A model generated the notes under the pieces. The model did not search any database, was not told where the DNA came from, and worked only from the letters and a program-made list of their open reading frames with translations. Below are positions 8,040-49,824 of a stretch of 64,000 bases of DNA, one piece after another; position 1 is the first letter of the stretch, and every line of letters begins with the position of its first letter. The stretch spans positions 59,330-123,329 of the forward strand of contig NZ_KE386821.1 of the NCBI RefSeq assembly GCF_000428945.1, in the 5' to 3' direction. The DNA comes from Hamadaea tsunoensis DSM 44101. GTDB taxonomy: Bacteria > Actinomycetota > Actinomycetes > Mycobacteriales > Micromonosporaceae. A program made the translations under genes and the position numbers.

Positions 8040-9251
8040 ATGAGAGACGAACGCAGGCGCTGGCTGATCCTCGTGGTCGGCCTGCTGGCCATGATCTCCG
8101 GCAGCACCTTCCAGTTCGGACTCGCGTACCTCATCCCCGCGCTGCGGCAGGACGGGTTCTCCCTGGAGATGGCCGGAGTCCTGGTCGCCTGCCCGACGGC
8201 GGGCGTACTGCTGACCTTGATCGCCTGGGGCGCGGCGGCGGACCGGTGGGGCGAACGCGTGGTCCTGTCCACCGGCCTCGGGTTCGCGGGCCTGGTGCTC
8301 ATCGCCGCCCAGTGGGCACCCGGTACGGGAGGCCTCGCCGCGTGCCTCGCCCTCGCCGGTGTCGGCGGTGCCTCGGTCCTCGCGAGCGGCCGGCTGATCC
8401 TCGGCTGGTTCGCCCGGCACGAGCGCGCCCTGGCGATGAGCATCCGGCAGAGCGCCCAGCCGCTGGGTGTCGCGCTGGCCGCCGCGACCCTGCCCGCGCT
8501 CGCGACCGGCGGCCTCGACCGGCCGCTGCTGTTCCTCGGGGCGCTGCTGCTGCTGGCGGCGCTCGCGGCGCTGGTTCTCGTCCGTGACCCGGTACGGCAG
8601 GAAGCCGATCCGGGCCCGCAGGAGCCGGCCGTGTCGCCCTACCGCACGCCGATGCTGTGGCGCATCCACGCGGCCAGTGCGCTGCTGGCCATCCCGCAGG
8701 TCACCGTGACCACGTTCGCCATCGTGTTCCTCACCGACGCCCGCCACTGGTCGGCCCTTTCCGCCGGGCATCTGCTGGCCGGTGCGCAGGTCTGCGGCGC
8801 GCTCGGCCGGCTGGGGGCGGGGTACTGGTCGGACCGCACCGACAGCCGGCTGCGGCCGATGCGGATCATCGCCCTGGCCACCGGCGCGGGCATGCTGGTC
8901 CTGGCCGGCGCGGCCGCCGCCGGGTGGAGCCTGGCGGTACCGGTCCTGCTGGTGCTCAGCGTGATCGCGGTGACCACCAACAGCCTCGCCTTCACCGCGG
9001 TCGCCGAGCACGCGGGGCCCGCCTGGGCCGGCCGCGCCCTCGGCATCCAGACGACCGGGCAGAACAGCCTGGGTGCCGCCACCCCGCCGGTCCTGGCGCT
9101 GACGATCGGCCTCGCGGGCTTCGCCACGAGTTTCGCCGTGGTGGCCGCGCTGCCGCTCGTCGCCGCGCTGCTCGTACCGGTCGCGGCCGAACATGCCGCC
9201 ACCCGGGACCGCACCGAGGCACCGGACCCGCAACCGGCCTCGGCTCGCTGA
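8040..9251 (+). CDS. MFS transporter
   Basis: A 403-residue major facilitator with about 12 hydrophobic segments. The first is LILVVGLLAMISGSTFQFGL. The loop 2-3 motif region reads WGAAADRWGERVVL, the usual gated-pore signature. The second half repeats the pattern (GRLGAGYWSDRTDSRL). It belongs to the general sugar/anion/drug MFS group; the substrate is unknown. The ATG at 8040 is preceded by GGGGACGGGA. An in-frame start at 7986 would add a hydrophilic 18-residue stretch and looks wrong. The stop codon runs almost directly into a long inverted repeat that could terminate transcription. Confidence 0.85.
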   Translation: MRDERRRWLILVVGLLAMISGSTFQFGLAYLIPALRQDGFSLEMAGVLVACPTAGVLLTLIAWGAAADRWGERVVLSTGLGFAGLVLIAAQWAPGTGGLAACLALAGVGGASVLASGRLILGWFARHERALAMSIRQSAQPLGVALAAATLPALATGGLDRPLLFLGALLLLAALAALVLVRDPVRQEADPGPQEPAVSPYRTPMLWRIHAASALLAIPQVTVTTFAIVFLTDARHWSALSAGHLLAGAQVCGALGRLGAGYWSDRTDSRLRPMRIIALATGAGMLVLAGAAAAGWSLAVPVLLVLSVIAVTTNSLAFTAVAEHAGPAWAGRALGIQTTGQNSLGAATPPVLALTIGLAGFATSFAVVAALPLVAALLVPVAAEHAATRDRTEAPDPQPASAR

Positions 9252-41265: not shown

Positions 41266-41469
41266 TCAGCCGGCGGCGATGACCTCGATCTCGACCAGCC
41301 AGTCGCCGACCAGTGTTTCGGCGACGATAGCGGTCGTCGGCACCGGCCGCCCGCCGAGGGCCGCGATCCGGGCGGCGGCGTTCGCCTCGGCCCACTCACG
41401 ACCGGCCAGGAAGCGGGCCCAGTCGCGGCGCCGGGGGTGTCGCAGGCGCCTGTTAATGTCCGTGCGCAC
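41266..41469 (-). pseudogene. Remnant of a RidA/YjgF-family gene
   Basis: The last 45 codons read EANAAARIAALGGRPVPTTA and TLVGDWLVEIEVIAAG, the end of RidA-like enamine/imine deaminases (normally ~130 residues). The N-terminal two thirds are absent. The first 20 codons (MRTDINRRLRHPRRR) look random. It is probably a deleted gene, sitting between a membrane protein and the STM4015 operon. Confidence 0.65.
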
Positions 41470-41501: not shown

Positions 41502-42425
41502 GTGGCCATCGCCCACCACATCACGACCTTCGCGGGCCTGCCCGTCGTCGACTACCCCGCCGGTGCGCCGGTGGCGGACCCCGCCGCGGTCGCGTGGCGC
41601 ATCGACGACCCGGAGTACGACGGCAGCGGCGCGTTCGAGCAGCACTTCTCCGCGCTGCTCGCCGAGGAGTGGGCGGGCGAGGTCACCACGCTGGTCATCG
41701 GCAACTGGGGCAGCTCCTACGACAGCCCGCCGCCGGTCGACCGGATCGCCGGCGGGGCCGCCCGGCTGACCTCGCTGCGGGCCCTGTTCCTCGGCGAGAT
41801 CACCTTCGAGGAGTGCGAGATCTCGTGGATCCAGCACACCGACATCACGCCGATCTTCGAGGCGTACCCGGGGCTCGTGACGTTCACCGTCCGGGGCGGG
41901 CAGGGCCTGCTGTTCAAGGCCCTGCGGCACACGTCGCTGCGCAGCCTGACGTTCCAGGCCGGCGGCCTCGGCGCCGAGGTCGTGCGCGCCGTCGGCGACT
42001 GCGACCTGCCCGAGCTCACCCACCTGGAGCTGTGGCTGGGCACCAGTGAATACGGCGGCAGCGCCATCGTCGACGACCTCGCCCCGATCCTGGCCGGCAG
42101 CCGGCTGCCGAAGCTGACGGCACTCGGCCTGAAGAACGCCGAGATCGCCGACGAGGTCGCGGCGGCCGTCGCGTTCGCGCCGGTCGTGGCCCGCCTCGAA
42201 GAGCTCGACATGTCGATGGGGGTCCTCACCGACACCGGCGCCGCGGCCCTGCTCGCCGGCCAGCCCCTGACCCACCTGCGCCGCCTGGACCTGCACCACC
42301 ACTACCTCACCGAGCCCGTGATGCGCCGGCTGACCGCCGAGCTCGCCGAGGCCGGGGTCGCCGTCGACCTGTCCGAGCTGGTCGAGGACGACGACGGCTG
42401 GCGCTACGTCTCGGTCGCCGAGTGA
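41502..42425 (+). CDS. STM4015-family leucine-rich-repeat-like protein
   Basis: A 307-residue protein that matches the STM4015 family. Regular leucine-rich-type units occur (SLRALFLGEITFEECEI; SLRSLTFQAGG; ELTHLELWLGTSEYGGS; KLTALGLKNAEIADEVAAAV; LRRLDLHHHYL). It is cytoplasmic with no signal peptide. In other bacteria it accompanies STM4014-4011. It may be a binding or recognition scaffold for the modifying enzymes encoded after it. First gene of the five-gene operon; STM4014 follows after 12 bases. Confidence 0.85.
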   Translation: MAIAHHITTFAGLPVVDYPAGAPVADPAAVAWRIDDPEYDGSGAFEQHFSALLAEEWAGEVTTLVIGNWGSSYDSPPPVDRIAGGAARLTSLRALFLGEITFEECEISWIQHTDITPIFEAYPGLVTFTVRGGQGLLFKALRHTSLRSLTFQAGGLGAEVVRAVGDCDLPELTHLELWLGTSEYGGSAIVDDLAPILAGSRLPKLTALGLKNAEIADEVAAAVAFAPVVARLEELDMSMGVLTDTGAAALLAGQPLTHLRRLDLHHHYLTEPVMRRLTAELAEAGVAVDLSELVEDDDGWRYVSVAE

Positions 42426-42437
42426 GGGTCGCGTGAC

Positions 42438-43508
42438 ATGCGGCTGACCGTCGTCGCCAACCCGGGCAGCCGCCGGGCGGTGCTGTTCGCCGCCGCGGCG
42501 GCGCGGGCCGGCCTGCCCGAACCCGAGATCGTCGCCTGGCACGACGTCGCCGCCGGCGCCGCGCTCCGTCTCACACCCCATTCCCTGGTACGCCTGGAGT
42601 CCCCCGGCGAGGACCCGGAAGTGGACCGGCTGCTGCGCGGCGCCGCCGTGCCGCTCGAGCACGGCGAGCTGGCCGGCGGCCGGTCCTGGTACGCCGGATT
42701 CCGCCGGGCCGTCGAGCGGGTCGCCGACGCCGCCCGGGAACAGGGCGCGTACCTGTGGGGGGACCCGGCCGAGGTGGCGGTCATGTTCGACAAGGCGGCC
42801 TGCCACGCCCGGCTGTCCGCCGCGGGCATCCCGGTCCCGCCCGCCCTGCCGGAGTCCCCCGTGGACTGGGCGGATCTGCGTACGCGGCTGACGGACGCGG
42901 GGTGGCGGCGCGTCTTCGTCAAGCCCCGGCACGGGTCGTCGGCCGCGGGCGTGATCGCGCTCGAATTCGGGCCCGCGGGGCGGCTGTCGGCCACCACGTC
43001 AGTGGAACCGGCCGGCGGCAAGCTGTTCAACTCCCTGCGCGTACGCCGCCATCGCGACGAACAGACGGTCGCGGCGATCGTCGACCGGCTGGCCCCCGAC
43101 GGCCTGCACGTCGAGCGCTGGTTCCCGAAGGCGGGGCTCGGCGGGCGCGTCATCGACCTGCGGGTCGTGGTGATCGGCGGCGAACCGTCGCACGTGGTCG
43201 TGCGGGGCAGCACCTCGCCGATGACCAACCTGCACCTCGGCGGCGTCCGGGGCGACCTGGCCGAGGTGCGCGCCGCCGCCGGCCCCGAGTACGCGGCGGC
43301 CCTGGACACCTGCCGCCGGGTGGCGGACGCGTTCCCGGGCAGCCCGCACGTCGGCGTCGACCTGATGCTCGGCTCCGGCTGGCGCTCGCACGCCGTCGCC
43401 GAGGTCAACGCGTTCGGCGACCTGCTGCCCAACCTGCTCGTCGACGGCCGGGACACCTATGACGCGGAGCTGGCCTCGCTGGCGGCGAGCCGGTGGGTGA
43501 CCGCGTGA
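42438..43508 (+). CDS. STM4014-family ATP-grasp-like protein
   Basis: A 356-residue protein of the STM4014 family. The C-terminal two thirds look like an ATP-grasp ligase: RRVFVKPRHGSSAAGVIALE is the Lys-Gly ATP loop. DGLHVERWFPKAGLGGRVID and DLRVVVIGGEPSHVVVRGS form the central sheet. HVGVDLMLGSGW and VAEVNAFGDLLP carry metal-binding Asp and Glu/Asn residues. It would form an amide or similar bond with ATP. The substrate is unknown. The stop overlaps the start of STM4013 (GTGA). Its place between the repeat protein and two radical SAM enzymes suggests modification of a peptide or small molecule. Confidence 0.85.
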   Translation: MRLTVVANPGSRRAVLFAAAAARAGLPEPEIVAWHDVAAGAALRLTPHSLVRLESPGEDPEVDRLLRGAAVPLEHGELAGGRSWYAGFRRAVERVADAAREQGAYLWGDPAEVAVMFDKAACHARLSAAGIPVPPALPESPVDWADLRTRLTDAGWRRVFVKPRHGSSAAGVIALEFGPAGRLSATTSVEPAGGKLFNSLRVRRHRDEQTVAAIVDRLAPDGLHVERWFPKAGLGGRVIDLRVVVIGGEPSHVVVRGSTSPMTNLHLGGVRGDLAEVRAAAGPEYAAALDTCRRVADAFPGSPHVGVDLMLGSGWRSHAVAEVNAFGDLLPNLLVDGRDTYDAELASLAASRWVTA

Positions 43509-44320
43509 GCCCGGACATGACGGCGGTCGTCGGCTCGCACGACCTCGCCCTGATCACCCTGGACACGCTGCGCTACGACGTGGCCGCGGACCTCGCCGCC
43601 GCCGGGCGTACGCCGAACCTGGCCCGGGTCCTGCCCGGCGGGGTCTGGGAGCGGCGGCACACGCCGGCGAGCTTCACCTACGCCGCGCATCACGCGTTCT
43701 TCGCCGGCTTCCTGCCGACCCCGGCCGGGTCCGGTCCCCACGCCCGGCTGTTCGCCGCCCGGTTCCCCGGCAGCGAGACGACCGCCGACGGCACCTGGGT
43801 GTTCGACGCGCCCGACCTGGTCGCCGGGCTGGCCGACGCCGGGTACCACACGCTGTGCCTGGGCGGCGTCGGCTTCTTCAACCGCCGCTCGGCGCTGGGC
43901 AGCGTCCTGCCGGGACTGTTCCGCGAGGACCACTGGCGGCCGGAGTTCGGCGTCACCGAACCCGATTCGCTGCGCCACCAGCTCGACCAGCTCCAGGCGA
44001 GCATCGGCGGGCTGGCACCGGCGCGGCCGCTGTTCACGTTCCTCAACGTGTCGGCCCTGCACCAGCCCAACCGGCACTACCTGCCGGGCGCCGACGCCGA
44101 CAGCGTCGACAGCCACGCCGCCGCGCTGTCGTATGTGGATGGACGGCTGCCGCGGCTGTTCGCCCTGCTGACCTCGCGCGGCCGGCCGTGCTTCGTCATC
44201 GTGTGCGCCGACCACGGCACCGCGTACGGCGAGGACGGGCACCAGGGGCACCGCGTCGGCCACGAGGTCGTCTGGACGGTCCCGTACGCCCACTTCACCC
44301 TGCACCCCGGAGACTGGTGA
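43505..44320 (+). CDS. STM4013-family alkaline-phosphatase-fold metalloenzyme
   Basis: A 271-residue member of the sulfatase/alkaline-phosphatase superfamily. The N-terminal LALITLDTLRYDVAADLA carries the metal Asp and the Thr that is often the nucleophile. Near the C terminus IVCADHGTAYGEDGHQGHRV carries the Asp and His metal ligands. The rest includes FLNVSALHQPNRHYLPG. It is shorter than normal sulfatases and cytoplasmic. It might act as phosphatase, phosphodiesterase or mutase in the cluster. The GTG at 43505 overlaps the stop of STM4014. Its own stop shares one base with the STM4012 ATG. Confidence 0.83.
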   Translation: MSPDMTAVVGSHDLALITLDTLRYDVAADLAAAGRTPNLARVLPGGVWERRHTPASFTYAAHHAFFAGFLPTPAGSGPHARLFAARFPGSETTADGTWVFDAPDLVAGLADAGYHTLCLGGVGFFNRRSALGSVLPGLFREDHWRPEFGVTEPDSLRHQLDQLQASIGGLAPARPLFTFLNVSALHQPNRHYLPGADADSVDSHAAALSYVDGRLPRLFALLTSRGRPCFVIVCADHGTAYGEDGHQGHRVGHEVVWTVPYAHFTLHPGDW

Positions 44321-45642
44321 TGATGCTCGACGGCTCGCCGTACCAGGGCTACCTGTACGCGTACCCGCACAAGACGGCGTACCGGCGGCTGGAACCGCGG
44401 CCGGCGTTGAAGGACGTGTGGCGGGACGAGCCGCGCGACGGGCTGTTCCTCTACGTGCACGTTCCGTTCTGCGAGATGCGCTGCGGCTTCTGCAACCTGT
44501 TCACCCGCGCCCGGCCGCCCGCCGAGCAGGTGTCGGCGTACCTGCGGCAGCTGCGGGTGCAGGCCGAGGAGGTCGCGTCGGCGGTCGGCCCGGCCGCGTA
44601 CGCCCGGGCGGCCTTCGGCGGCGGTACGCCGACCTACCTGACGGCCGCCGAGCTGGCCGACCTGTTCGCGGTCACCGAAGACGTGCTGGGCCTGCGGCCG
44701 GCCGCGGCGGGGCTGTCCGTCGAGACCTCCCCGGCGACCGCGACCCCCGACCGGCTGGAGATCCTGGCCGCCCACGGTACGCAGCGGGTCAGCATCGGCG
44801 TACAGAGCTTCCTGGACACCGAGGCGCACGCCGCCGGGCGGCCTCAGCACCGGGAAGACGTCGACCGGGCGCTGGACGCGTTGCGGGCGGCCGGTTTCCC
44901 GATGCTGAACCTCGACCTGATCTACGGCATTCCCGGGCAGACCGCCGACACGTGGGACTACTCGCTGCGTACGGCGCTGGGCTGGCGGCCCGAAGAGCTC
45001 TTCCTCTACCCGCTGTACGTGCGGCCGCTGACCGGTCTCGGCCGGCGCGGCGCGCCCGACGGGCCCGACGACGAGTGGGACCGGCAGCGGCTCGACCTCT
45101 ACCGGCAGGGCCGCGACCTCCTGCTGGCGGCCGGCTACCGGCAGCTGTCCATGCGCCACTTCCGCCGGGCCGACGTCGCCGATCCGGGCGGCCCGGACTA
45201 CTGCTGCCAGGACGACGGCATGATCGGACTCGGCTGCGGCGCCCGCTCCTACACCCGGGACCTGCACTACTCCTTCGATTACGCGGTCGGCATCGCCGAG
45301 GTGCGCGGCATCATCGAGGACTACCTGGACCGGCCGGCCGGCGACTTCGCGTACGCGGAGGTGGGTTTCGCCCTGGACGAGCGCGAGCAGCGGCTGCGCT
45401 GGCTGGTGAAGACGTTGCTGCGGACCGACGGGCTCGACGCGGCCGCCTACCGCGCGCGGTTCGGCACCGAACCGGGCGCGGACCACCCGCACCTGGGTGA
45501 GCTCGAAGACCGGGGCTGGGCGGCGTGGGACGGCGACCGGCTCGCGCTGACCCCGGAGGGTGTCGGCCGCGGCGACCAGATCGGCCCGTGGCTGATCTCC
45601 GACACCGTCCGCGCCGCGATGACCGGGGCGGCCGTACGGTGA
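44320..45642 (+). CDS. STM4012-family radical SAM protein (HemN/HemW-like)
   Basis: A 440-residue radical SAM enzyme. YVHVPFCEMRCGFCNLFTR holds the iron-sulphur CxxxCxxC at residues 51, 55 and 58. RAAFGGGTPTYLT binds S-adenosylmethionine. SIGVQSF and LNLDLIYGIPGQT match the HemN/HemW-type barrel. A helical HemN_C-like domain follows. GCGARSYTRDLHYSFD is also HemN-like. Despite this likeness it is not part of a heme operon and is distinct by family and context. It is translationally coupled on both sides. Probable radical chemistry on the cluster's unknown substrate, perhaps with heme or a methyl group as cofactor. Confidence 0.88.
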   Translation: MMLDGSPYQGYLYAYPHKTAYRRLEPRPALKDVWRDEPRDGLFLYVHVPFCEMRCGFCNLFTRARPPAEQVSAYLRQLRVQAEEVASAVGPAAYARAAFGGGTPTYLTAAELADLFAVTEDVLGLRPAAAGLSVETSPATATPDRLEILAAHGTQRVSIGVQSFLDTEAHAAGRPQHREDVDRALDALRAAGFPMLNLDLIYGIPGQTADTWDYSLRTALGWRPEELFLYPLYVRPLTGLGRRGAPDGPDDEWDRQRLDLYRQGRDLLLAAGYRQLSMRHFRRADVADPGGPDYCCQDDGMIGLGCGARSYTRDLHYSFDYAVGIAEVRGIIEDYLDRPAGDFAYAEVGFALDEREQRLRWLVKTLLRTDGLDAAAYRARFGTEPGADHPHLGELEDRGWAAWDGDRLALTPEGVGRGDQIGPWLISDTVRAAMTGAAVR

Positions 45643-46535
45643 ACCTGCTCATGCTCTACCGGGGGCCGCTTTCCAGCTGCAACTACGACTGCCCGTACTG
45701 CCCGTTCGCGAAGCGGCGCGACAGCCCGGAACAACTGCGCGCCGACCGCGCGGCGCTGGACCGGTTCGTCGACTGGACGGTGGCGAACCCGTTCGGCGAC
45801 AAGCTTTCCGTGCTCTTCACGCCGTGGGGCGAGGGCCTGACCCGGTCGTGGTACCGCGACGCCCTGGTACGCCTGTCGCACCAGCCGCACGTCGAACGGG
45901 TCGCCATCCAGACGAACCTGGCGGGCCGGCTCGGCTGGGTGGCCGAGGCGGACGCGTCCCGGCTCGCGCTGTGGGCGACCTACCATCCCGGCCAGACGAC
46001 CCGGGAGCGGTTCCTGCGCGCCTGCGCGACCCTGGACGGGCACGGCATCCGGCATTCGGTGGGCATGGTCGGGCTGCCCGAACACCTCGACGAGGCGAGG
46101 GCGATGCGGGCCGCCCTGCCCGCCGGCACGTACCTGTGGATCAACGCGGCCGACGGGCACGGGTACACCGCCGACGAAGAGACACAGTGGACGGACATCG
46201 ACCCCCTGTTCGGCTACAGCGTCCGCCCGCACGCCTCGGCCGGCCACGAGTGCTGGGCCGGTGAGACGGCGGTGTCGGTCAACGGAGACGGCCTCGTACG
46301 CCGCTGCCACTTCCTGCCCGAGCCGCTCGGCAACCTCTACGACGGCTCGTTCCGGGCAGCCCTGAAGCCGCGGGCGTGCCCGGCGACCAGCTGCGACTGC
46401 CACATCGGATACGTGCACCTCAAGCGGCTCGGCCTGCACGAGGTGTTCGCGGGCGGGGTCGCCGAACGCATCCCCGCCAACCTGCCCACCTGGGGTACGC
46501 CCCACCAGTCCATCAGATCGGCGGCACACCTCTGA
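45639..46535 (+). CDS. STM4011-family radical SAM protein with a SPASM-like cysteine cluster
   Basis: A 298-residue radical SAM protein. SSCNYDCPYC gives CxxxCxxC at residues 14, 18 and 21. The C-terminal part has a Cys, then 12 residues, Gly, 4 residues, Cys (HECWAGETAVSVNGDG followed by LVRRC), and further on CPATSCDC. This matches the start of the SPASM/Twitch auxiliary-cluster pattern used by peptide-modifying enzymes. The GTG at 45639 overlaps the stop of STM4012 (GTGA). It is the last gene of the operon. Together with STM4014 and STM4012 it suggests modification of a peptide or amino-acid-derived product; no precursor peptide is visible. Confidence 0.87.
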   Translation: MNLLMLYRGPLSSCNYDCPYCPFAKRRDSPEQLRADRAALDRFVDWTVANPFGDKLSVLFTPWGEGLTRSWYRDALVRLSHQPHVERVAIQTNLAGRLGWVAEADASRLALWATYHPGQTTRERFLRACATLDGHGIRHSVGMVGLPEHLDEARAMRAALPAGTYLWINAADGHGYTADEETQWTDIDPLFGYSVRPHASAGHECWAGETAVSVNGDGLVRRCHFLPEPLGNLYDGSFRAALKPRACPATSCDCHIGYVHLKRLGLHEVFAGGVAERIPANLPTWGTPHQSIRSAAHL

Positions 46536-46893: not shown

Positions 46894-47442
46894 CTACAGG
46901 CCCAGCGGGACCGGAGCCGTCGGCGTACCGGTGGTGAGCAGCGCCGTCAATGGTGTGGCGAGGTCGCGGGGCGAGAACAGGTCAGGGCCCGTGTAGCCGA
47001 CGATCTCCGAGAGCCGCCACCAGCGGAACGCGGCCAGGTTCTCCTCCGCGGCGAGCACGTCGTCGGTGAACTCGCCGCGGGGCTCGAAGTGGCTCACTCG
47101 GACGAGGAAGTAGTCGTTGACGATCCCGTCGAAGCCCGGCGCCGAGTCGGCGAAGAGGATTTCCTGGTGCCAGACGTGCGGTGGGTCCGCGATGATCGGG
47201 AGACCGGTCTCCTCGCGTAGCTCGCGGCGCAGGGCCGTCAGCGGATCCTCGCCGGATTCGACGCCCCCGCCCGGTGCCGCCCACACGCCCGTCGCCTGGC
47301 TCGGCACCGCCGGGTGCGGAGGGACGAACCGGCACAACAGGATGCGGTCGTCCTCGTCCACCATGATCGCCCGGACGGCCCGGCGCAACCTCGGCGTCGT
47401 AGTCCGCCGGGTGGGGCGATGATCTCCGGACACTACGATCAC
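46894..47442 (-). CDS. Nudix hydrolase
   Basis: A 182-residue Nudix protein. The Nudix box GGVESGEDPLTALRRELREE, then TGL, has all metal-binding glutamates (G-5x-E-7x-REUxEExGU). The preceding AVRAIMVDEDDRILLCRFVP is the usual first strand. It should hydrolyse a nucleoside diphosphate linked to another moiety; the substrate cannot be told. The start is one of two GTG codons (47442 or 47433), neither with a strong RBS. It is downstream of and on the same strand as the DUF6745 gene, 32 bases away. Confidence 0.88.
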   Translation of the reverse strand: MIVVSGDHRPTRRTTTPRLRRAVRAIMVDEDDRILLCRFVPPHPAVPSQATGVWAAPGGGVESGEDPLTALRRELREETGLPIIADPPHVWHQEILFADSAPGFDGIVNDYFLVRVSHFEPRGEFTDDVLAAEENLAAFRWWRLSEIVGYTGPDLFSPRDLATPLTALLTTGTPTAPVPLGL

Positions 47443-47474
47443 CTCGTCTGGTCGCTGCCGTACATAGGCGAACG

Positions 47475-48614
47475 TCAGGTCTGCTGCTGCGGCGCGTACT
47501 CGTCGGCGGTGAGGTCGAACGTCCACGCCACACCCTCCCGGGCGGTACGCACGCTCGGCGGCACCCGCAGGAAGTAGGTGCGGCTGGTGCCGTCCGGTTC
47601 CGGCGTGGAGTTGACGACCTCGACCATGACCAGCGGCTCGTCGCCGGGCAGGTCGACGCGCCACAGGATGCCGTAGTCGTCGGACTGGACCCGGGTCGCG
47701 TCGGACTCGCTGAGGTAGCGGTCGAAGCCGAAGTACTCCAGCATGACCCGGCGGATCTCGGCGTTCTCCTCCGTCCGGATCCGTTCGGCGGTCAGGTCCG
47801 GCAGCTGCGCGGCGACGTCGTCGGGGACCGGCATGCCGCGCCACGCGTACATGCTGAAACCGTCCGGGTAGGACAGTGCCGGGCCGCCCGCCTGGTGCAG
47901 CCGGCCGAGGTTGTCGCGGTGCAGCTGCGCGGGCCGCTCGGTGACGACGGCGATCCGCTCGAACGCCCACCACCAGCCGGCGGACCGGGCGACCTGGGCG
48001 AGCCCGGCCAGCTCCGGCTGCTCGTCGTCGAACGCGGCCAGCCACGCCGCGTCGTACTGGCCGTGGATGACGTCGAGCAGCGCGTCCCGGGCGGCCTCGC
48101 CGAGGTCGCCGTCGGCCGAGAAGTCGGCGTCGAGCCGGGTGCGGACCGGGCTGACGATCCGCTCGGTCAGCTGCTGCCAGCAGCGGCGGGTCGTCGCCAC
48201 GCTGTGCCGCGCGTAGCCGACCGGGCCGAGGGCGCCGGCGATCGCGGACCGGGCCCGCGCCCACGGGCCCGTACGCACTTTCGACCGCACGCTCGCGCCC
48301 AGCGTCACCTCGCCGGGCACGACGCCCTGCTCGGCGAGCCAGTCGGCGACGTAGGGATCGCCGGATTCGCCTCTCGACAGCATGGCCACGGCGGCGGCCC
48401 CGGCCGCGGGGGAGCCGAGCCACACGATGTGCTCGGGCTCGGCCAGCCCGGCGGCCCGGTACGCGGCGCGGACCCCGGCCTCGGCGGCGGGACGGTCGGC
48501 CGGTGCGGTGGACAGCCCGTGGGCGAGCCATTCCTCGGCCCGCTCGGCGAGCCGGGCATCGTCGATCAGCGGGTCGGTCGGCGCATCGACGGCGGTGTCG
48601 GTCGGCTGGCCCAT
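47475..48614 (-). CDS. DUF6745-like protein
   Basis: A 379-residue protein that resembles DUF6745 family members. The core phrase is GGPALSYPDGFSMYAWRGMP, followed by AEIRRVMLEYFGFDRYL. The N-terminal ~100 residues are helical (WLAHGLSTAPADRPAAEAGV). Related proteins often occur beside leucine-rich-repeat proteins and are of unknown function. There is no signal peptide or membrane span. The ATG at 48614 shares a base with the stop of the small upstream gene (TGATG), so the two are translationally coupled and probably act together. Confidence 0.75.
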   Translation of the reverse strand: MGQPTDTAVDAPTDPLIDDARLAERAEEWLAHGLSTAPADRPAAEAGVRAAYRAAGLAEPEHIVWLGSPAAGAAAVAMLSRGESGDPYVADWLAEQGVVPGEVTLGASVRSKVRTGPWARARSAIAGALGPVGYARHSVATTRRCWQQLTERIVSPVRTRLDADFSADGDLGEAARDALLDVIHGQYDAAWLAAFDDEQPELAGLAQVARSAGWWWAFERIAVVTERPAQLHRDNLGRLHQAGGPALSYPDGFSMYAWRGMPVPDDVAAQLPDLTAERIRTEENAEIRRVMLEYFGFDRYLSESDATRVQSDDYGILWRVDLPGDEPLVMVEVVNSTPEPDGTSRTYFLRVPPSVRTAREGVAWTFDLTADEYAPQQQT

Positions 48615-48934
48615 CAGTCGGCCACGAACCGGATCGCGCCGGGGAAGTACTCGCGCTGCCGCACGACGCGGTACGCGCCGGGGCTCAGCGACACCGGGCC
48701 GTGCTCCTCGTGCACGAGCCGGCCGTAGCCCTCGATGACCAGGTAGAGCCGGTCGGGTTCGTCGGGCGGGCACAGCAGCGACACCCGGTCGCCGGTGGCC
48801 ACGTGCGCGTGGCCGGTCGCCTCGCCCAGGGCCAGCACCATGCGGTTGCGGCGGTCGCGCGGCGCGGCCACCAATCCCGCCGGAAGATCCGCCTCGTCGA
48901 GGGGGACCACCAGAACGTCACCTTGCCTGTGCAT
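48614..48934 (-). CDS. Small conserved partner of the DUF6745-like protein
   Basis: A 106-residue protein beginning MHRQGDVLVVPLDEADLPAG. It contains LALGEATGHAHVATGDRVSL and ends SPGAYRVVRQREYFPGAIRF. Short beta strands with GHAHV suggest a small beta-barrel such as a cupin-like fold. The family is not recognised by name. The RBS GGGAGCG precedes the ATG at 48934. It is coupled to the DUF6745 gene, so the pair is likely one functional unit. Confidence 0.72.
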   Translation of the reverse strand: MHRQGDVLVVPLDEADLPAGLVAAPRDRRNRMVLALGEATGHAHVATGDRVSLLCPPDEPDRLYLVIEGYGRLVHEEHGPVSLSPGAYRVVRQREYFPGAIRFVAD

Positions 48935-49002: not shown

Positions 49003-49824
49003 CTACGCGGCGGGTACGACAGTTCCGTCCGGGACCGCACGGGAGGCCGCCAGCCGTTCCAGGACGAGCGCCACCCCGTCCTCGTCGTTGCTGGCCGTCA
49101 CCAGGTCGGCGCGTTCGCGTACCTCTGGGTGGGCGTTGGCGACCGCGACCGACAGGCCCGCCCACTCCAGCACCGGCAGGTCGTTGGGCATGTCGCCGAA
49201 CGCGACCACCCGGTCCGCGGTCACCCCCCACCGCTCGCACAGCGCGCGTACGGTGGCGGCTTTCGAGACGCCCGCGGCCGCGATCTCCACCATCCCGGCC
49301 GCGCCCGAGTAGGTCACCGACAATCCGAGCGCCGCGCGCCACCGCTCCAGCGCCGCGGTGGTCACCTCACCGCCGGTCCAGCCCAGCAGTTTCACGCACT
49401 GTTCGGCGTCCCAGAGTTCTTCCACGGTACGCACATCCAGCCGCGCCGGATCACGCCGGGCGCCGCGGCGCCAACCTGGTCCGGCCAGTGCTCGCGTACC
49501 GGTCTCGACCGCGAAAGCCATGTCCGGTGCGATCGCCGCCATGGTCTCCGCGGCGGCCCGGGCGACGTCCGACGGCAGGGCGGCCAGGACCTCGGTGACG
49601 CCGGTGTCCATGTCGTGCAGGACGGCTCCGTTGCAGCAGACCGCGAGGCCGCCGAGTCCCGCGCCGGCGATGAGGACGGGCAGGAACCGGGGCGGCCTCG
49701 CGGTCGCGACGACGATCCGCATCCCGGCCGCCCGGGCCGCCGCCAACGCCGCCCGCGTCCGCTCCGACACGGTGGCATCGGAGCGCAGCAGGGTTCCGTC
49801 GAGGTCGACGACGGCCAGATCCAT
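49003..49824 (-). CDS. HAD-superfamily phosphatase, Cof type
   Basis: A 273-residue HAD-IIB protein. Motif I is AVVDLDGTLLRSDATVS. Motif II is IVVATARPPRFLPVL. Motif IV is VVAFGDMPNDLPVLEWAG. The C2-type cap lies between. It should dephosphorylate small phosphorylated metabolites such as sugar phosphates or flavin precursors. It stands 20 bases after the MMPL gene on the same strand and may be transcribed with it. Confidence 0.9.
   Translation of the reverse strand: MDLAVVDLDGTLLRSDATVSERTRAALAAARAAGMRIVVATARPPRFLPVLIAGAGLGGLAVCCNGAVLHDMDTGVTEVLAALPSDVARAAAETMAAIAPDMAFAVETGTRALAGPGWRRGARRDPARLDVRTVEELWDAEQCVKLLGWTGGEVTTAALERWRAALGLSVTYSGAAGMVEIAAAGVSKAATVRALCERWGVTADRVVAFGDMPNDLPVLEWAGLSVAVANAHPEVRERADLVTASNDEDGVALVLERLAASRAVPDGTVVPAA

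Follow-up and report, generated by a model that had tools for sequence, protein, structure and literature searches.

The STM4015 protein of Hamadaea tsunoensis DSM 44101 ends in a conserved tail whose last residue is glutamate, and its gene adjoins that of STM4014, an enzyme of the type that ligates molecules to such tails; the cluster therefore probably builds or modifies something on the tail. New here are the Glu-ended tail itself, the likeness of the STM4014 model to ArgX, RimK and LysX, and a set of recurrent partner genes. In our preferred reading, to which we give a little short of an even chance, STM4015 serves as a carrier or substrate to whose C-terminal Glu STM4014 couples a molecule, and two radical SAM enzymes and phosphohydrolases act on that molecule. 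The five families span at least five bacterial phyla, and the tail and ligase fold suggest one concrete function to probe. If true, this would be a new carrier-tethered radical SAM pathway; it would explain why a leucine-rich protein is associated with four enzymes and would provide a handle on DUF6745 and HEEH, two partner families.

The window is the whole stretch of 64,000 nucleotides that was analyzed. Its relevant features, with NCBIfam bit scores and curated cut-offs where given, are:

41502..42425, + strand: STM4015 family protein, 307 aa, GTG start (361 bits, cut-off 275)
42402..42422, + strand: codons of the STM4015 tail R-Y-V-S-V-A-E, Glu last
42438..43508, + strand: STM4014, ATP-grasp protein with LysX/ArgX/RimK fold, 356 aa (427 bits, cut-off 175; model pLDDT 91)
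43505..44320, + strand: STM4013, alkaline-phosphatase-superfamily hydrolase, 271 aa (413 bits, cut-off 250)
44320..45642, + strand: STM4012, HemN-like radical SAM enzyme with HemN_C domain, 440 aa (606 bits, cut-off 380)
45639..46535, + strand: STM4011, radical SAM enzyme, 298 aa (394 bits, cut-off 200)
46894..47460, - strand: NUDIX hydrolase
47475..48614, - strand: DUF6745 protein (PF20530), recurrent partner, start placed by eye
48614..48934, - strand: 'HEEH' protein, 106 aa, just before DUF6745 (phrog_27831)
49003..49824, - strand: Cof-type HAD-IIB hydrolase, 273 aa, occasional partner

An earlier note had described a complete STM4015-4014-4013-4012-4011 operon coupled by overlapping start and stop codons and conserved as a unit. 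The operon is indeed complete: all five genes are intact and in that order on the + strand at 41502-46535, and all five products exceed the cut-offs of their NCBIfam families, the names of which say nothing of a mechanism, a tail or partner genes. Overlaps were found at three of the four junctions (GTGA at 43505-43508 between STM4014 and STM4013; a single shared A at 44320 between STM4013 and STM4012; GTGA at 45639-45642 between STM4012 and STM4011); STM4015 and STM4014 are instead 12 bases apart. CX3CX2C is intact in both radical SAM proteins (C51/C55/C58 in STM4012; C14/C18/C21 in STM4011, invariant in 14 sequences), and the family-invariant residues of STM4014 and STM4013 are in place. A promoter and terminator scan gave one promoter-like site, on the opposite strand, and no terminator. 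Conservation as a unit was borne out by 88 of 95 loci having all five families in the window's gene order, in a sample biased toward intact operons because most of these loci were fetched via their own STM4014. Two to five STM4015 copies occur in 33 of the 88.

STM4015 has a leucine-rich fold to about residue 290, then an acidic disordered linker and the conserved tail; from residue 291 onward the two final blocks of the model have pLDDT 59 and 54, and the tail is predicted to be disordered. The family consensus of the tail is R-[YF]-[VIT]-[AS]-V-[SAG]-E. Once the frame-broken reads L062_1 and L102_2 were excluded, here and from the paralogue comparison below, Glu was last in 46/46 non-redundant proteins and was the sole fixed position. 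Position -5 is Y in 34 of them and F in 9; 25 have S or T at position -1, and 15 have W at position -7. Information content is 2.4-4.3 bits at the last seven positions versus 0.8-1.9 upstream; the control C-termini set beside these values retained redundant sequences. Among the 161 proteins read, a subset of the STM4015 proteins found, 156 have the final Glu; the other five comprise two whose tail lies in a different frame, one interrupted by an internal stop, one that runs into a contig end and one that is tailless. In a first-pass set the count was 137/139, and both misses have the tail in another frame.

Paralogues within a locus (59 pairs) have a mean identity of 0.64 in the body, 0.77 in the tail and 0.14 in the linker; tail and linker were aligned from the C-terminus without gaps, a procedure that depresses the linker figure. 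Glu is final in both members of all 59 pairs; counting against a carrier, the tail is no more alike than the body in 14. Remote copies, defined as lying on a different contig or 100 kb or more from the operon, also have Glu last (8/8 intact ones of L190-L196, 3/3 in Embleya), and the residues preceding it vary. Also against a carrier is L198, an intact-looking paralogue that has no tail in an operon-bearing genome. Searching the 9.5 Mb genome of H. tsunoensis with a tail pattern gave one match, STM4015 itself, with F-type tails missed since the pattern demands Y at -5; in relatives' genomes there were unrelated matches too, as there were with a reversed control.

In the PDB, the STM4015 model is matched best by 2ra8 (E 1.2e-19), the uncharacterized B. 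fragilis protein Q64V53, which is very close to B. finegoldii STM4015 (E 2e-176). In the 362-residue chain of 2ra8 the sequence ..YPMITE ends at residue 354. The B. finegoldii protein has an additional N-terminal WGR domain, which was not found in the window's STM4015.

The search for a conserved short peptide beside the cluster that the earlier note had proposed came back empty: of the 809 short ORFs lying up to 900 bases to either side of the operon at 89 loci, none was seen to be such a peptide. Judged by position and by eye, the biggest groups of similar short ORFs (23, 10 and 7 loci) seem to be antisense to DUF6745 or an upstream gene. The conserved peptide is STM4015's own C-terminal tail.

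The top PDB neighbor of the STM4014 model is ArgX with LysW (3vpb, Z 23.6, rmsd 2.8 over 272), followed by RimK (7qys, Z 23.2; one RimK entry includes RpsF) and LysX (3vpd, Z 22.9). Other ATP-grasp enzymes score 1.7-3.6 Z units under ArgX: glutathione synthetase 21.9, the D-cycloserine synthetase DcsG 21.2, inositol-pyrophosphate kinases 20.8 and DdlB 20.0. Since ATP-grasp folds are widespread, and the top sequence-profile match of STM4014 is biotin carboxylase, the fold does not prove the acceptor. This model and that of STM4015 were both built on actinobacterial alignments.

LysX and ArgX attach an amino group to LysW at the gamma-carboxyl of its C-terminal Glu, according to the available portions of PMC10433800 and PMC9303977, the former adding that the ligase motif GSWGR reads the carrier's EDWGE. 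As in LysW/LysX and ArgW/ArgX, an ATP-grasp ligase of similar predicted fold here adjoins a candidate carrier with a conserved final Glu. Unlike the small, zinc-binding LysW, however, the candidate carrier is leucine-rich with only two Cys; the window's STM4014 lacks GSWGR and its STM4015 lacks EDWGE, which counts against a carrier, and the remaining operon enzymes are of radical SAM and phosphohydrolase types. The system has in common with RimK-RpsF the ligase fold (Z 23) and a presumed acceptor that is the C-terminus of a protein; it differs in that this presumed acceptor is non-ribosomal and three further enzyme families are present. In pearlin pathways (3-thiaglutamate, 3-thiahomoleucine, ammosamide) the loader is a tRNA-dependent PEARL, whereas here it would be an ATP-grasp enzyme; no tRNA-dependent PEARL ligase domain was recognized among the five operon proteins.

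What the analysis shows is the genes, the conserved tail and its predicted disorder, the predicted fold of the ligase, the co-occurrence and the partner genes; we infer each reaction, which molecule is attached, in what order the steps run and how release occurs, and likewise the radical SAM and phosphohydrolase chemistry. STM4015 would act as a covalent carrier or substrate, its leucine-rich scaffold presenting a flexible Glu-ended tail. STM4014, as a LysX/ArgX/RimK-type ligase, would use ATP to activate a carboxylate of the C-terminal Glu and join to it a molecule that bears an amine, in the simplest case an amino acid. STM4012 (HemN-like) and STM4011 (SPASM-like) might then modify the molecule while it is tethered, and STM4013, plus HAD-IIB where present, may dephosphorylate an intermediate, transfer its phosphate or aid release. 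Multiple STM4015 copies, some remote from the operon, could provide the operon's enzymes with alternative carriers in trans. A point against a carrier is that none of the five operon proteins was recognized as a peptidase-like release enzyme. The earlier note had suggested that the operon makes or repairs a modified peptide or cofactor; this is compatible with the findings and can be made more specific, though repair found no support.

STM4012 matches HemN (1olt, E 6e-51) and NocN (E 1e-33) by profile. By profile it is clearly related to HemN, the oxygen-independent coproporphyrinogen oxidase, but its 119.7 bits fall below the NCBIfam cut-off of 324.95 for that enzyme. STM4011 has a C-terminal cysteine cluster resembling SPASM/twitch (C205/C223/C247/C252/C254, invariant in 14 sequences). 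In STM4013, T58 is by family analogy a candidate nucleophile, and D20, D236, H237 and H249/H253 are candidate metal ligands. Type I sulfatases have a C/S-x-P-S-R formylglycine motif, which is absent from STM4013, the corresponding stretch reading SFTYAAH with T58 invariant.

Instead of carrying something, the tail could itself be the product: a RiPP-like core peptide, with the leucine-rich body as an oversized leader. We consider this unlikely, and just as unlikely the chemistry that goes with it, in which the radical SAM enzymes would edit the tail's aromatic, Arg or Val and STM4014 would make a graspetide-like link from Glu. It would fit a conserved, disordered terminal peptide on the one non-enzymatic-looking protein of the operon, the divergent STM4015 copies in many operons, and the pair of radical SAM enzymes, of which STM4011 has its only PDB profile match (E up to 0.1) in the maturase SkfB (E 2e-4, C-terminal part). 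The graspetide ligase PsnB ranks 10 among Foldseek matches of the STM4014 model, and an MFS transporter gene lies within 2.5 kb of the operon in about ten loci. The residues to be edited vary, however, only the final Glu being fixed in the 46 proteins, and protease and transporter domains are absent from the five operon proteins.

The tail could also be a docking site, which would count against a carrier. Leucine-rich proteins are usually binding proteins, and conserved short tails often dock. STM4015 might on this basis be a scaffold that gathers the enzymes, with STM4014 joining free small molecules as do DcsG, Ddl and glutathione synthetase, which reach Z 20-22 against its model. We regard this as quite improbable. 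A docking motif does not in itself call for a single fixed last residue, and Glu is found in 46/46; yet the terminal carboxylate and Glu could belong to the epitope that is bound. Least probable of all is a RimK-like modification, in which STM4014 would lengthen or cap STM4015 by adding glutamates or some other residue for regulation while the radical SAM enzymes act elsewhere. In its favor, RimK structures (Z 23.2, 23.1, 23.0) tie with ArgX against the model, and RimK adds Glu to the RpsF C-terminus, as the available portion of PMC10092738 has it; against it, the ordered five-gene linkage (88/95 loci) is left unexplained.

Beyond 46535, genes that recur at other loci continue to about 49824. 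DUF6745 relatives were found at 59 of 92 STM4014 loci (none in the flank at 33) and HEEH at 64 (none at 28), counts that are lowered by short flanks at contig ends and that include self-matches, as several queries were taken from the searched loci. The HEEH protein reads ..GHAH..VHEEHGPVSL..GAYRVVRQREYFPG.. in sequence. HAD-IIB occurs at 7/92 loci; it is fused to STM4011 in Bacteroides, overlaps it in Salmonella, adjoins DUF6745 and HEEH in Deinococcus taeanensis, and is also near the operon in Catellatospora and Nocardiopsis, associations that favor the carrier reading. Among 246 genomes, STM4013 was found in 6, DUF6745 in 7 and both in 4 (hypergeometric 3.5e-6, which overstates independence as three of the four come from one genus). 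Against the link, DUF6745 and HEEH also occur without STM401x genes (L157, L159). The NUDIX hydrolase has a relative at one of 92 loci, the window itself, and is probably not a member. More tentatively, the whole may be a carrier or protein-modification system in which the leucine-rich protein, in tandem or dispersed copies, tethers a small molecule at its C-terminal Glu for the two radical SAM enzymes and the phosphohydrolases to act upon, and DUF6745, HEEH and HAD-IIB are accessory; we hold this possible rather than probable.

No published function was found for the STM4011-STM4015 families in open-licence PMC papers, searched by family names and gene combination, nor any paper on DUF6745 in that literature, nor any on 2RA8 / Q64V53 in a combined-term search of it. 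In the available portions of three papers, STM4013.S has a sigma-54 site, intragenic and on the opposite strand (PMC3844500), STM4015 is entered under positive selection (PMC2784778), and an account of CDC123 / RimK-like ATP-grasp proteins mentions neither leucine-rich nor radical SAM genes (PMC4431377).

Members occur in Actinomycetota, Deinococcota, Bacillota, Alpha- and Gammaproteobacteria and, in reduced form, Bacteroidota; the 80 actinobacterial loci are the best 80 of 560, other phyla were sampled from plasmid records, and some genomes counted may be the same organisms as other loci in the sample. STM4015 was found in 49 of 345 genomes and STM4014 in 48, all 48 common to both, a pairing that favors the carrier reading. 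A Calothrix plasmid has an STM4015 with no nearby copies of the other operon genes, and this solitary copy counts against a carrier. Phage origin was rejected, STM4011 appearing in only 2 of 50,697 phage records, both labeled Salmonella and probably host DNA; so was a defense system, the best PADLOC values being only E 1.7e-5 (STM4012) and 4e-4 (Deinococcus DUF6745 protein). In a near-identity search, which would miss diverged copies, none of 5,426 complete E. coli genomes had a site covering 80% of the Salmonella operon; 94 matched it partly, and among the ten matches listed all fell in a HAD gene.

The operon encodes five intact proteins, each scoring over the curated cut-off of its NCBIfam family (STM4011-STM4015), and this five-family assignment is far beyond chance.

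41502-46535, plus strand: STM4015, STM4014, STM4013, STM4012 and STM4011
41270-41440, minus strand, directly 5' of STM4015: a stretch that by eye resembles a piece of a RidA-family gene and may be a remnant

Three of the operon junctions overlap, and a gap of 12 bases separates STM4015 from STM4014. Pfam searches with the window proteins gave sulfatase and phosphodiesterase matches for STM4013, radical SAM and HemN_C matches for STM4012, sub-threshold matches for STM4015 (leucine-rich) and STM4011 (radical SAM), and no domain match for STM4014.

All five families occur in the same order in 88 of 95 loci (the window and 94 fetched loci), a share to be taken as an upper estimate since most loci were retrieved through STM4014 or STM4013; STM4015 is present in two to five copies in 33 of the 88. 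The seven incomplete loci comprise two with only STM4015 (L040, L041), one with only STM4013 (L036), a Bacteroides locus without STM4012 (L039) and three with genes missing, at least one of these a 3.5-kb contig (L065). Within the phylum, 6 of 246 genomes have an STM4013 match above its cut-off. At E 1e-10, STM4015 was found in 49 and STM4014 in 48 of 345 genomes of the class, all 48 being common to both; the sole further genome with STM4015 (G467) is an assembly of ~1,310 contigs in which the gene sits close to the end of its contig. Plasmid records from Salmonella, Paenibacillus, Methylobacterium and three Deinococcus carry annotations of all five genes, extending the set beyond Actinomycetota. 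The Bacteroides finegoldii plasmid record (L039) lacks STM4012, keeps STM4015, STM4014 and an STM4011-HAD fusion, and holds an STM4013 remnant of 58 aligned residues at 8755-9082.

Stray members were also seen. A Calothrix plasmid (L040, 2014-3285) has an STM4015-like gene standing alone; its product ends in ..RYCSVAE and is extended at the N-terminus by a region resembling part of GUN4-domain proteins. A second, divergent STM4013 (L036, 447-3385; genome G161, contig 52) stands without the other four operon genes. Its neighbours are a NUDIX gene, a gene for a MoaA-like radical SAM protein and, by eye, a P-loop kinase-like stretch, a setting suggesting that hydrolases of the STM4013 type may also work for a different radical SAM cluster. 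An unannotated 5.9-kb record labelled Salmonella phage (OR850900.1, hit H70) contains an STM4011 gene, probably host DNA.

Each STM4015 was translated through to its stop codon, and 137 of the first 139 end in Glu; the two other reads (L062 and one L102 copy) have the tail in another frame. When redundancy was cut by protein body and these off-frame reads were left out, the last residue was Glu in 46/46 proteins, with information at positions -6 to 0 of 3.12, 3.18, 2.40, 2.88, 3.66, 2.54 and 4.32 bits, falling in the acidic stretch upstream to 1.59 bits at -7 and 0.94 at -8. As a control we used the C-termini of the other four operon proteins, with redundancy retained: STM4014, STM4013 and STM4011 carry 0.6-1.5 bits over their final ten positions, while the STM4012 C-terminus is also conserved (up to 4.05 bits) but its last residue is not fixed (R in 66/87). 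The 59 within-locus paralogue pairs average 0.77 identity over the last seven residues, 0.64 over the body and 0.14 over the linker; in 45 of them the tail exceeds the body in identity. Copies remote from an operon (on another contig or >=100 kb away; L190-L196) end in Glu in all 8 intact cases, as do 3/3 in Embleya (L205, L206); the residues preceding the Glu vary more in these copies (for example WRFPSATE and YYTAASE). Of the copies without it, one has an internal stop (L197), one has no tail (L198) and one, in G467, loses similarity near the contig end (L199). Overall 156 of 161 STM4015 read (sets of 139, 12 and 10) have the final Glu, and the solved B. fragilis structure 2ra8 likewise has ..YPMITE in its sequence.

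The STM4014 model (23 sequences, pLDDT 91) was compared with the PDB, counting Z differences below 1 as ties, and was also run through Foldseek. The closest match is ArgX with LysW (3vpb, Z 23.6, rmsd 2.8 over 272), followed by RimK (7qys, 23.2; 5zct, 23.1; 5zk6, with RpsF, 23.0) and LysX (3vpd, 22.9), and then by glutathione synthetase (21.9), DcsG (21.2), inositol-pyrophosphate kinases (20.8) and DdlB (20.0). Sequence profiles agree weakly, with biotin carboxylase on top (E 3e-5), LysX next (1e-4), then cyanophycin synthetase and RimK; an ITN..GG stretch aligns to LysX at low score. LysX is described as joining an amino group to the gamma-carboxyl of Glu54, the last residue of LysW (PMC10433800, PMC9303977), and RimK as adding Glu onto the RpsF C-terminus (PMC10092738).

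HemN (E 6e-51) and NocN (E 1e-33) are the nearest PDB matches of STM4012, whose CX3CX2C is intact. That motif and five further cysteines are invariant in 14 STM4011 sequences; the only PDB profile match of STM4011 is SkfB, over the C-terminal part (E 2e-4). STM4013 matches nucleotide pyrophosphatase/phosphodiesterase at E 3e-7 overall, single stretches being weak, around D20, T58 and D236-H237; the nucleophile of that enzyme is a threonine. The sulfatase motif is absent from STM4013.

A ligase of LysX/ArgX/RimK fold lies beside a protein nearly always ending in Glu, both in the same genomes, and on this we base a tentative reading with a little less than an even chance of being right: STM4014 would load STM4015 at its final Glu with something on which the phosphohydrolases and the radical SAM enzymes would work, and STM4015 paralogues would be alternative carriers. 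Our searches of open-licence PMC papers gave no earlier proposal of this kind. The system may work like LysW/LysX, but we do not class it there, because the motifs EDWGE and GSWGR are absent from the window's proteins and the carrier fold differs. The near-invariance of the final Glu favours chemistry there over editing of the more variable positions that precede it, and RiPP-like editing of the tail seems less likely. In the STM4015 model the leucine-rich body has high confidence, whereas pLDDT falls to 59 and 54 in the two final blocks, which start at residue 291; the conserved tail is also predicted to be disordered, as expected for a substrate or a docking peptide. A tail serving docking only seems improbable, and RimK-like glutamylation we consider the least probable.

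DUF6745 lies beside the operon in 55 loci including the window, 53 of them within 2.5 kb (flanking-gene clustering). By tblastn, 92 STM4014 loci hold HEEH (the ~100-aa protein encoded just before DUF6745) in 64, DUF6745 in 59 and a HAD-IIB relative in 7; four further operon loci add three, three and one. The DUF6745-HEEH pair lies on the opposite strand either upstream or downstream of the operon, or else on the operon's own strand, there downstream except in Methylobacterium, where it is upstream; its position has therefore been rearranged more than once. Since the pair is also found alone, it is a module often, not always, linked to the operon. In Bacteroides the HAD enzyme forms a fusion with STM4011, in Salmonella the two genes overlap, and in Nocardiopsis the HAD gene lies 3' of STM4011; the window, Catellatospora and Deinococcus taeanensis (43% identity to the window's) have it together with DUF6745 and HEEH.

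No paper was found under the name DUF6745. DUF6745 also occurs at L157, L158 and L159, whose genomes yield no STM4013 match above cut-off; in L157 and L159 a HEEH relative adjoins it. In Deinococcus and Methylobacterium (L043, 12068-13078; L044, 5592-6614) the DUF6745 protein has, by eye, its own leucine-rich-looking N-terminal part, and the Deinococcus protein matches XopL-type leucine-rich effectors (E 5e-8, far under cut-off). In about nine loci, Actinomadura and related ones, the operon is preceded by methionine-type ABC transporter genes (NlpA lipoprotein, NIL-domain ATPase, permease), for example:

L082, 5266-7103: methionine-type ABC transporter genes
L114, 7054-7905: methionine-type ABC transporter genes

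About ten loci have an MFS transporter gene within 2.5 kb of the operon (e.g. L035, 10410-11903), which may export a product or be there by chance.
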